The position numbers and the translations under genes were made by a program. A DNA stretch of 64,000 nucleotides from Cyanobium sp. FGCU52 (lineage in GTDB: Bacteria; Cyanobacteriota; Cyanobacteriia; PCC-6307; Cyanobiaceae): assembly GCA_024958715.1 (NCBI GenBank), contig JANWUS010000053.1:124001-188000 (forward strand), in the 5' to 3' direction. This document shows, in pieces, positions 54,696-59,876 of the stretch. Each line of letters begins with the position of its first letter. Positions within the stretch are counted from its first letter, which is position 1. Under the pieces are notes generated by a model. The model saw nothing but the letters and a program-made list of their open reading frames with translations. It did not search any database and was not told the origin of the DNA.

Positions 54696-56018
54696 ATGCC
54701 CTTTTCAGCCATGCCGGACCGCCAGCGTCGCCGGCGCCTCCTCGGCCCCGCCTGCGTCCTCATCCTGCAGACCTGCACGGCCGCGGGGCTGATCGCCGCC
54801 CTGGCCGCCGATGCCAGGGCCGCCCAGAGACTCGAAAGACCGCTGCGGGTGCCGCTGCACTGGCGTCCGATCAGCTGGGGCGGCAGCGGCGCGGCCCCGA
54901 GAAAGCTGGGCATCTATGCGGCGCTGGGCGGCAGCACCACACCCAGGCTGTTCGAATTCGACACCGGCGGCGCCGGCTTTTATCCCACCTATGCCACGGG
55001 TGGCGCCTCGTCCTGGTGGGGCAATGACGTCACGGCCACGGGTTACACCTTCACGCAGAAGTACGATGGAGATAACATCAAATACAAGGGCGATGTGGTG
55101 CTCACGTCGCTGGGCCTGTTTGCGGATGTTTCCGCGGCTCAGCCCCTGTTGACGGCCTTCGATGTGGTGGTGGGTCAGACCACGAGCATCAACGACCAGC
55201 CGATCGATGCGTCCCCGCACAACCCACCCCTGGAGGCTGCCTTCTGGGGGGATTTTGGCATGGCTCCCAAACAGGGAAAACCCGGCAAGGACGACAGCGG
55301 GACCCTGCCTGGGCCTGTGCCGATTCTCGACAGCCTGCTGGCCCAGCTGCAGTACGGATCCGCGGTCATCCCGGGATTCCGTGTGCATGCCTCGTCGGAG
55401 AGACCCTGGGTGCAAATCGGGCTTGGCAAGGATGATCTGAATCTGCCGGCCCCGGCCATGAGCTTCAGCCTCAACCTCGGCAGCGGCAGCTCAGCGACCG
55501 GCATCCCCTATTACGACGAGTTTGTGATCACCGGCACCCTGGCGATCAGCGCGACTTCCAGCAGCTACTGCAACGGCCAGACCGGGATGATCTTCGATAC
55601 AGGCGCCTTCACCACCATCCATGACAGTGGTGGCCATGTCCCCGCAGCGCTCGTCAGCGGTGGCCAGGTGATCGACAACGCCCTGGTGCAGATCAGCGGA
55701 CTCGCAACAGCGGCCGGCTCGCCCTGTCCAGGGACAGCCTCGCCATTCCTGCAGTTCGCGGCCGGCTCGACCGTCGACCAGGATCTGGTGTGGGTGAATG
55801 CCTCGGGCGGCGACTACCTCAACACCGGCATCCTGCCCTTCCTGAGCAACGACATCATTTACAACCTCGGCCACGACAGCGCCGATGGCCATCTGACGAT
55901 CGTGCCCCAGTCCGTGCCGGAGCCGCTCAGCGCTGCCGGTACCGTTGCCGCCGTGACCGTGAGCGCACGGCTGCGGCGTCTGCGCCGGCGGATCCGGGAG
56001 CGCGACGGGAGCTGCTGA
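54696..56018 (+). CDS. PEP-CTERM-like protein with two D-T-G motifs (putative pepsin-like aspartic protease)
   Basis: LFEFDTGGAGFYPTY and GMIFDTGAFTTIHD, then NTGILPFLSNDIIYNLGHDSADGHLTIVP and C-terminal SVPEPLSAAGTVAAVTVSARLRRLRRRIRERDG. Confidence 0.65.
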   Translation: MPFSAMPDRQRRRRLLGPACVLILQTCTAAGLIAALAADARAAQRLERPLRVPLHWRPISWGGSGAAPRKLGIYAALGGSTTPRLFEFDTGGAGFYPTYATGGASSWWGNDVTATGYTFTQKYDGDNIKYKGDVVLTSLGLFADVSAAQPLLTAFDVVVGQTTSINDQPIDASPHNPPLEAAFWGDFGMAPKQGKPGKDDSGTLPGPVPILDSLLAQLQYGSAVIPGFRVHASSERPWVQIGLGKDDLNLPAPAMSFSLNLGSGSSATGIPYYDEFVITGTLAISATSSSYCNGQTGMIFDTGAFTTIHDSGGHVPAALVSGGQVIDNALVQISGLATAAGSPCPGTASPFLQFAAGSTVDQDLVWVNASGGDYLNTGILPFLSNDIIYNLGHDSADGHLTIVPQSVPEPLSAAGTVAAVTVSARLRRLRRRIRERDGSC

Positions 56019-56064: not shown

Positions 56065-56823
56065 TCAGCCGAGAGTGCGGAGATGAGGTTTCAGTTGAGG
56101 GTCTGCGTCTCTGGTGAGCGGCAGCTGATTGAGCAAGCGGCGCCGCTCCTGCCAGTCCGGCATGTGGGCATCAAGCCAGGCAACGAACGCTTCGCCATGG
56201 GTCGGGACCTTCAGATGGACCAGCTCATGCAGCACGACGTAGTCGAGACAGGCCCGTGGCTTCTGGGCCAGCTGCGAGTTGAGGCGGATGTTGCGGGTGT
56301 GCGGATTGCAGCTGCCCCACTGGCGGCTCATTGCCTGAACAAAAAGCTTGTTGATCTGTACGCCCAGACGCCGCTGCCAGTGATCAATCAGACCAGCAGC
56401 CTCCCTCCTCAGTTCGTTGCGGTACCAGGCCGCCAGGATGCTCTGGCGCTTCTCCAGAGTCGAACCAGGCCGGAGGTAAAGGATCAGCTGTCTGGGGTGA
56501 ACCTCTATCCGCGGCGCCGCATTCACCTCTTCAATGTGCAGCAGCAGTCTCTGGCCCCAGAGGGCATGGGATTCCCGCTCCACCACCAACCTGGGACTCT
56601 CGCGCGGTTGCGCGGCAAGGCGGGCCTGCTGCCTGCGGATCCAGGCCAGTTTGCCGATGGCGTAGGCGCGCACATGGTGAGCGCTCATGCCGTGCGGGGC
56701 GGAGATGCGCACGGCTCCATCGGGCGGCACAACCGAGAGATGCAAATGTTTGATCGGCTTGTGCGTGACCTCCACAGCTACGCTCCCGATTAGCAACTGG
56801 TGGCTGGAGGGTGCCTGAGACAT
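56065..56823 (-). CDS. M48/YgjP-type (SprT-like, DUF45) metallopeptidase
   Basis: QWGSCNPHTRNIRLNSQLAQKPRACLDYVVLHELVHLKVPTHGEAFVAWLDAHMPDW. Confidence 0.9.
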   Translation of the reverse strand: MSQAPSSHQLLIGSVAVEVTHKPIKHLHLSVVPPDGAVRISAPHGMSAHHVRAYAIGKLAWIRRQQARLAAQPRESPRLVVERESHALWGQRLLLHIEEVNAAPRIEVHPRQLILYLRPGSTLEKRQSILAAWYRNELRREAAGLIDHWQRRLGVQINKLFVQAMSRQWGSCNPHTRNIRLNSQLAQKPRACLDYVVLHELVHLKVPTHGEAFVAWLDAHMPDWQERRRLLNQLPLTRDADPQLKPHLRTLG

Positions 56824-59800
56824 CAGTATTCAGGCTGGGCCAACAACACAGCAAACAGCCGCTCCACCTCAGCCTGGTCCTCAAGAACGCCGTAAAGTGC
56901 GGCCTTGATCAGCTGCTCCTTGGCCTGCACGCCGCGCCAGCCATCGGGCCTCACCTGGCGCACGGTGCGGTCGATGCGCAGGGCCAGATCGAGGTCGCCA
57001 TTGAGGTTGTTCCACAGGGCTCGTTTCCCCGGACTGTCCAGTTCGGATGGCGTGCTGTCGGCCGTTTGTTGCTGCAGCTGGCGGGCCAGGTCGGCGATGC
57101 GCCGCAGATATTCCTCGTAGGCATCAGCCTGCTGCTTGCGGAAACGGATGATCTCATCCAGCACCTGCGACATCCGGTCGTAGAAGGCAGGATCATGAGC
57201 ACGCTCGCTGATGATCGTGCGGCGCATGTTGTTTTCGATCGTCTCCTGAACCGCCTTTTTGTTGCCGCTCGATTTACCAAAGCTCTGGTTGATGGCCTGA
57301 GCGACACCCGTCTTGACGATCAGCTCCAGCAGGCCAATGTCGTCGAAGGCAGAGATCTTGCGTGGTTGATTGGCTTCAATGTAGGCATCGATCAGGAAGC
57401 GCATGTCGGCCTCGTAGGCCTTGAGATCGAGATTTTCCCCTGCCGCCAGGCGGATCACCTGGCGCCAGTCGAGGGCCTTGTCACGCTGTTGCGTGATCCG
57501 GGTCGCTTCAGGGGCGGTGTATCCAGCCTCTGTCAGTTCATTGGCCAGTGCGGCATGGGCCCTGGTGAGCTCAGCAACAGCCTTGTAATAGGCCATGCGT
57601 AGAGGCTCTCGCGCCTGCAGGTCATCAGGGTTTTCGGTGTTGCCGCAGAAGTGGTGGAGGATGGCAAGCTCATCCTTGGGTGGGGCCACGGGTTCGGCCA
57701 GCAGGGCTTCTTTCTCCGAAGCATCATCAAGCCGCTGCTAGGCTTTGTTGAGCCGATCCTGCAGCAGCACATCGGGATCAGGGCCAGCTGCGGAGTAATC
57801 CAGATCGTCGCTGGAGTACACCGAAATGGCATTCTCGACCTTTTTGAACAGGTCCTTGTAATCGACGATTAGACCATAGGGCTTGTCGTCGCCGTCGAGC
57901 CGGTTGGTGCGGCAGATTGCCTGGAACAGGCCGTGATCCTGCATCGACTTGTCGATGTAGAGAACGCTGCAGGAAGGGGCATCAAAGCCAGTGAGCAGTT
58001 TGTCGACCACGATCAGCAGCTTCATCTGGGCTGGCTGGCTGATGAACAGCTGCTTGGCCTGTTCCTCATAGGTTTCGGTGCGGCTCATGCCTGGTTGCGG
58101 GGCAATGCCTGAGAGCAGCTGCTGGTAGATGCTGAAGATGACCTGCTTGTCGGTTTCGGTGTTGGCGCCCACCTCCTCCTTGCTCACATCAGCGGCCTTC
58201 GGGTCGTAGGAGGTGATCACGGCGCACTTGCCCTTGAGTTCCGTGTGCTGAAACAGCTCGAAGTAGCGGCAGGCCTCGTAGATGCTGGAGGCCACCAGGA
58301 TGGCGTTGCCGCGTTGGGACGCCAGGCGCTGAATGTTGACAGCAAAATCGTGGATGATGTCGAACACGATGCGCTCCATTCTGGAGCGTGAACTGAGCAC
58401 GTTCTGCAGGGTGCCCCACTGGCGCTTCAGCTCTCGTTGCTGCCAGGGATTGAGTGTGGCGGTTTTGGATTCAAACCACTGATCCACGCGCTCCTGCGAG
58501 CTGAGCCGTTGGTCGATGTCGCGAGCTTCGTAGACCAGATCGAGGACCACCTTGTCTTCGACGCCTTCGCTGAACTTGTAGGTGTGGATGTAGCCGCCGA
58601 ACACCTCCAGGCTTGTGGCTTTGTCCTTGTTGAGCAGGGGCGTCCCGGTGAAGCCGATGAATACGGCCTCGGGCAGCAGTGCCTTCATCACACGATGCAG
58701 CTTGCCGCTCTGGGTGCGGTGGCATTCATCCACGAAAATGAACAGTTCGCCTATCGCTGGACTGGGCTGGGCCTGGAGCTGTTCGAGATAGGCCTCGAAG
58801 TCATCGACGCCCCGCACACCGAACTTATGCACCAGTGAGCAGAGCAGCCTTGGCCTGGGTTGGCTGAGAGCCTGCATCAGATCTTTGCCGCTGCTACTGC
58901 GCTGGATGGTTTCACCTGCCGCACCGAACACGCTTTCAATCTGCTTGTCGAGCTCATCGCGATCGGTGACGATCACCACACGGGCGTTGGGGTTGTTAGC
59001 AAGGATCCAGCGGGCGAGCAACACCATGACGATGCTCTTGCCGCTGCCCTGGGTGTGCCAGATGATGCCGCCACGGCGCTCTCGCACATGCTTCTGGGCA
59101 GCCTTGATCCCGAAATACTGATGGACCCGTGGCAGCTTCTTGATACCACCATCGAAAAGCACGAAGTCGCGCAGTAATTCGATCAGCCTGTCCTTGCGGC
59201 AGATCTTGAGCAGGTACTTATCGAGTTTGAGGCGGCTGTTGTCGGCTTCGTCCTCCTTCCAGCTGAGGAAATACTTCTCGGGCGTCTGAATGGCGCCATA
59301 GCGGAGCCCTTCAGAGTCGTTGCCTGCCAGCACGAGCTGGTTGGTAGCGAAGAACCAGGCGTTGAACTCCGGTTGCTGATTGGACAGGTTCTGGCGGATG
59401 CCATCACCGATACTCACACGGCTGCGCTTGAGCTCGATCACGCCGATCGCGATGCCGTTCACATAGAGAACGAGATCTGGACGCCGCTCCTGATTCCCTT
59501 TGAGGGTCACCTCCTCAGCGATGGCGAAGTCGTTGGCTTCTGGGTTGTTCCAGTCGATCAGCGCCACGGTGCTGGTGGGCTGATCGGCGGCGGCCTTCAC
59601 CTGCACGCCGTAGCGCAGCAGGGAGTAGACGCGGCGATTGGCCTCATAGAGTCCCAACTGGCTGACATCGGCTGCGCTGCGGAGCTGATAGAGGGCTCCG
59701 CTGATCTCCGCTTCGCTGTAGCCGCGGCGCTGCAGGGTGGTGCTGAGGATGGCCTCTTCAATGTTGCTGTTGCCAGCCCGGTCTTTCCAGTCGCCCAGGT

Positions 59801-59876
59801 AGCGGTAACCCAGCTTCTCCTGAAACAGGCGGAGTACCCGGTCCTGGGTGGCTCGCTCAAAGCCGAGGCCGCTCAT
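56823..59876 (-). pseudogene. hsdR: Type I restriction enzyme subunit R, interrupted by in-frame TAG
   Basis: ORFs 57738..59876 (RPDLVLYVNGIAIGVIELKRS nuclease motif; QGSGKSIVMVLLARWIL; DECHRTQSG) and 56823..57689 (C-terminal helical region) are in the same frame, separated by NKA-TAG-QRLDDASEKEALLAEP. Confidence 0.88.

Follow-up and report, generated by a model that had tools for sequence, protein, structure and literature searches.

A putative exported, pepsin-like aspartic protease with a degenerate PEP-CTERM-like tail in Cyanobium sp. FGCU52

Introduction

Bilobal pepsin-like enzymes were long thought to be eukaryotic and few bacterial ones have been described; to our knowledge such enzymes are rare in bacteria, and exported ones rarer still. 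An open reading frame of Cyanobium sp. FGCU52 (54696-56018, forward strand; all unprefixed positions are those of the window, the whole 64,000-nucleotide stretch of DNA that was analysed) raises the question of whether a bacterial pepsin could be at work outside the cell, and whether its C-terminus is a PEP-CTERM-type sorting signal, as an earlier note on this DNA had proposed. No paper joining aspartic protease, pepsin-like and PEP-CTERM was found among those searched. In its fold the product is, with good confidence, a divergent bilobal, pepsin-like aspartic protease, a designation given because of the order and invariance of its motifs and a Foldseek top 50 made up of family A1 enzymes only, despite negative sequence tests; its protease activity is proposed less firmly than the fold.

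Two DTG motifs in a pepsin-like order

The frame runs uninterrupted from ATG to TGA and encodes 440 amino acids, which would form an exported, bilobal aspartic-protease-like protein with detectable homologues. The pairing of its motifs goes beyond chance: among the window's 83 open frames with a length of 300 residues or more, it alone carries two D[TS]G motifs 150-280 residues apart. Asp89 (in LFEFDTGGAGF) and Asp301 (in GMIFDTGAFTTIHD) are separated by 212 residues and form a hydrophobic-D-[ST]-G pair at bilobal spacing; the separation of roughly 210 residues and the hydrophobic contexts noted earlier were therefore correct, the positions to within one residue, and the late ILPFLSNDIIYNLGHDSADGHLTIVP is likewise present.

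Orthologues of about 52% identity were found in two genomes of the same genus (G032, at L002, and G037, at L005), and a translated plasmid search returned relatives in Azospirillum sp. B510 (E 3e-4; E 6e-11 in a pairwise comparison) and A. lipoferum 4B (E 0.2). Alignment of the three cyanobacterial and two Azospirillum proteins, at 28-52% identity, gave 59 invariant positions, with LFEFDTGG, Y123, Y130, G132, FxGDFG, P209, Q217, DTGA, FxAG and NTG retained in all five. That both aspartates are kept down to 28% identity argues that Asp89 and Asp301 matter.

Read from the N-terminus, all on the forward strand, the first predicted catalytic motif, LFEFDTGGA with Asp89 (54948..54974), is followed by a candidate flap hairpin, KYDGDNIKYKGDVVLTS, that contains the invariant Y123, Y130 and G132 (55059..55109); this segment is a hairpin in a low-confidence model of the trimmed domain, and Tyr123 aligns with the YGTGS of pepsin in a profile alignment. 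FWGDFGMA (55242..55265; F183, G185, D186, F187 and G188 invariant) is a candidate for the first hydrophobic-hydrophobic-Gly, or psi-loop, element, and PILDSLLAQL (55320..55349), helical in the trimmed model and containing the invariant P209 and Q217, for the counterpart of the pepsin helix that comes after the psi-loop. The second predicted catalytic motif, GMIFDTGAFTTI with Asp301 (55587..55622), has an invariant DTGA and T307, and is followed by YLNTGILPFLSN (55815..55850; N376, T377, G378 and F382 invariant), a candidate second hydrophobic-hydrophobic-Gly element. The conserved FWGDFG (183-188) and YLNTG (374-378) lie at plausible places for the two psi-loop elements within a structure model of low confidence. 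The resulting order of first DTG, candidate flap tyrosine, hydrophobic-hydrophobic-Gly, helix, second DTG and second hydrophobic-hydrophobic-Gly fits that of pepsin.

Export and the C-terminal tail

By eye and by hydropathy, the N-terminus (54696..54821, forward strand, approximately residues 1-42) looks like a typical Sec signal, consisting of RQRRRR, CVLILQTCTAAGLIA and ADARA, with a mean hydropathy of 1.98 across its most apolar 15-residue segment and a putative point of cleavage. The tail (55914..56015, forward strand), judged in the same way, has the tripartite layout of VPEPL, a 15-residue segment with a mean hydropathy of 1.36 and a basic RLRRLRRRIRER; the SVPEP, apolar stretch and RLRRLRRRIRERDG of the earlier note are all there. 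In its signal peptide, P-x-P, apolar segment and C-terminal arginine cluster, and in the presence of an exosortase in the genome, the protein resembles PEP-CTERM/exosortase substrates, whereas it falls under the cut-offs of both models for that class: PF07589 gave no match to the tail, and its TIGR04155 score of 11.2 bits, a level also reached in 12 of 14 control genomes, is below the cut-off of 21.6.

The earlier note had seen no exosortase in the window, which nothing here contradicts; a single copy lies elsewhere in the genome (G000:C17:1486-2175, PF09721 95 bits). Its best NCBIfam model is TIGR03763, cyanoexosortase A, at 118 bits and under the cut-off of 150. An exosortase matching PF09721 is present in 39 of the 42 genomes of the genus, as three genes in G032 and as one in most of the others. 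Directly beside the exosortase, at a spot where exosortase-associated proteins might be expected, a 242-residue protein of no known family is encoded (L006:707-1435, reverse strand).

The host genome also contains a clear house tag, VPGPLPLLGAGAAFGFSRKLRRR, and the tag common to proteins of these genomes takes the form VPGPLPLLGAGAAFGFSRKLRRRI. A model of this tag was built from nine tails of these genomes, which themselves score 54-62 bits. Against it the tail encoded in the window scored 4.6 bits, a value equalled by 4 of 1000 shuffles, and that of the G037 orthologue -0.5 bits, which is at chance level (238 of 1000 shuffles as good). The G032 orthologue tail, VPAPVPLLAPVATLALARRLRRR, is nearer to the house tag, at 11.2 bits with none of 1000 shuffles as good.

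The low house-tag scores and the failure of both PEP-CTERM models would fit a second account, in which the protease is correctly identified and the tail serves as a plain transmembrane anchor at the C-terminus, its arginines following the positive-inside rule, rather than as an exosortase substrate. Against this account, the order of proline-rich, apolar and arginine-rich parts is kept in the tails of all three orthologues, the G032 tail looks like the house tag, and the window tail outscores 996 of 1000 shuffles. It is a serious possibility, falling somewhat short of an even chance; it departs from the main reading in the sorting step alone, and its probability is not to be added to those of the other readings. 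The tail thus has a PEP-CTERM-like layout and a degenerate sequence, and may be no more than an anchor: the tag proposed in the earlier note stands as regards layout, genomic exosortase and tagged proteins in the same genome, and does not stand as a match to any PEP-CTERM model.

Sequence and structural comparison with family A1

Pfam and NCBIfam models gave no match to the protein up to E = 10. PF00026 (Peptidase A1) matched neither the protein nor anything else in its genome (G000), and none was found in 340 cyanobacterial genomes, a search in which the control genomes were silent as well. A sequence search of the PDB found no relative, and hhalign against pepsins gave a probability of 0.3%, no higher than that of reversed controls. 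Global profile alignment with four pepsins brought the two DTGs and the flap tyrosine into register (z 2.6, better than 100 of 100 block shuffles), with end gaps penalised and gap costs that were picked after a free-end version had given trivial overlaps alone. The psi-loop glycines were out of register in this alignment, so the psi-loop correspondences proposed above rest on the authors' reading.

Template-free AlphaFold models of the whole protein and of the trimmed domain, both run with the L002 orthologue included and the Azospirillum sequences left out, each had a pLDDT of approximately 36. When searched against the PDB with Foldseek, the full-protein model returned aspartic proteases at ranks 1-16, and for the trimmed domain all 50 of the matches listed were A1 enzymes (BACE1, BACE2, cathepsin D, endothiapepsin and chymosin), with probabilities of up to 0.93, a best E of 6.1e-3 and none below 0.001. 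Among viral matches an aspartyl protease ranked second. Given the low pLDDT of both models, this A1 ranking cannot be accepted as it stands: BACE1 entries are very numerous in the PDB, the ranking was made without an unrelated-protein control fold, and the presence of DTG could in itself draw AlphaFold and Foldseek towards A1 enzymes. The fold evidence for a pepsin-like protein is suggestive. The earlier assignment to a bilobal pepsin-like protease is in this way favoured by motif order, invariance and the lead of A1 enzymes in the ranking, and finds no counterpart in any sequence or profile match to A1.

Relation to known bacterial and eukaryotic enzymes

The protein shares with family A1 (pepsin, cathepsin D and BACE1; clan AA) the pair of DTGs, here 212 residues apart, together with a candidate flap tyrosine and two candidate hydrophobic-hydrophobic-Gly elements that follow one another as they do there. 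It differs from that family in having DTGG and DTGA instead of DTGS and DTGT, in being bacterial, in its C-terminal membrane tail and in the lack of any detectable sequence similarity. The shewasins, which are A1 enzymes that lack a signal peptide and are reported to be cytoplasmic (PMC2761423, PMC4814920), are likewise bacterial; they are also bilobal with two catalytic aspartates, as the sequence and weak models suggest for the cyanobacterial protein, and the marine homologues also have alanine after the second DTG. Unlike the shewasins, which are recognised as A1, the present protein has a signal peptide and is unrecognised by PF00026. The mycobacterial aspartic protease PecA/PE_PGRS16 (PMC6819658) is similarly bacterial and surface-located, with an active site of DTG plus DTG or DSG, but is exported by type VII secretion; its C-terminal domain model, PF20729 (PE-PGRS_C), matched neither the protein nor anything in G000. 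On present evidence the protein would work like the shewasins and PecA while being a member of neither A1 nor PE-PGRS_C by any model.

The Azospirillum relatives (WP_012977915.1 and WP_014189545.1, hypothetical proteins of 28-29% identity) contain the same invariant motifs; unlike the cyanobacterial proteins they have no apolar, arginine-rich tail, are plasmid-borne and lie beside a second two-DTG protein. This second, different protein is encoded directly upstream of each of them (L016:2670-3755 and L017:2686-3735), and has remote relatives in Xanthomonas sacchari and on a further Azospirillum plasmid, pAB510e; none of these proteins exceeds the cut-off of a Pfam model. Membership of PE-PGRS_C was considered and dropped, the weak match (E 0.037) being confined to the remote Xanthomonas protein. 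Global profile alignment of the cyanobacterial protein with this Azospirillum/Xanthomonas group gave z 4.2, and the second type was not found in cyanobacteria in a search run without a positive control. It is tentatively suggested, as a possibility of less than even probability, that the cyanobacterial protein belongs to an undescribed bilobal clan-AA protease family, apart from A1 by sequence, exported and exosortase-displayed in some picocyanobacteria, where it would act as an extracellular bacterial pepsin, and with relatives on Azospirillum plasmids.

A bilobal fold that is a protease no more, serving as a surface binding or structural protein with the DTG loops kept for stability, would account for a first motif that reads DTGG where Ser, Thr or Ala usually follows the DTG, for the very patchy occurrence of the gene (3 of the 42 genomes of the genus) and has a precedent in PE_PGRS16, which has the fold and for which activity was not seen (PMC6819658). 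Retention of the two aspartates, the Thr-Gly pair next to each and the putative flap tyrosine in relatives of as little as 28% identity would be unexpected had catalysis been lost, and makes this explanation unlikely. A secreted beta-rich protein in which two DTG tripeptides have another role would suit the absence of family, PDB and profile matches and the low confidence of the models, but is improbable given the invariance of both DTGs with their surrounding hydrophobic residues and the dominance of A1 enzymes in the fold ranking for two separate models.

Proposed mechanism

The pepsin-like reading in full, a Sec-exported bilobal aspartic endopeptidase held at the membrane by its tail and subject to an exosortase step, is considered slightly better than an even bet, its fold (from weak models), catalysis, export and exosortase processing all being inferred. 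The protein would be exported through Sec and its signal peptide removed, after which the domain (approximately residues 43-405) would fold into two lobes outside the cytoplasmic membrane. Asp89 and Asp301 would face each other and activate water for the cleavage of peptide bonds, with Tyr123 on a hairpin flap covering the cleft. The C-terminal apolar segment and the arginines that follow may retain the protein in the membrane, where the single exosortase would probably cut at the tail and either release the product or attach it at the surface; extracellular matrix or surface proteins would be obvious candidate substrates. The pH optimum is weakly predicted to be close to neutral and not gastric, because the residues after the DTGs (Gly and Ala) are without a hydroxyl, by analogy with renin and retropepsins. 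The analogy is weak because the same expectation was raised for the shewasins, yet shewasin A behaved much like pepsin-type enzymes (PMC4814920).

Distribution, selection and gene neighbourhood

Comparison of the gene with its orthologues gave a dN/dS of approximately 0.4 at a dS of approximately 1, values which indicate that it is under purifying selection. The G037 copy (L005:7860-9214) is broken mid-gene by a frameshift, through either sequencing error or decay. Further samples of the family, class and phylum gave no convincing match beyond the three genomes; in the wide samples approximately four candidates were scored per genome, so remote relatives may be missed. Viral contigs and phages were also searched and contained no relatives. 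Weak cyanobacterial matches in G182, G303, G468, G506, G555 and G746 were set aside as short or of marginal E; the two of them that were inspected failed, L044 as a translated stretch without DTG and with stops in that frame, and L049 because it overlaps a frame resembling ribosomal protein L7/L12.

The genes surrounding the locus read like ordinary housekeeping genes. In the window the protease gene adjoins ubiD in divergent orientation, an arrangement apparently repeated in G032 on a reading of the local ORFs, and in G037 the orthologue adjoins tyrS. Convergent with the gene in the window is that of a YgjP-like metallopeptidase (56065-56823, reverse strand), which sits between it and an interrupted type I restriction gene, hsdR (56823-59876, reverse strand). 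The main part of hsdR (57738-59876) stops at an in-frame TAG (57738-57740), and its C-terminal part is a separate ORF (56823-57689) in the same frame.
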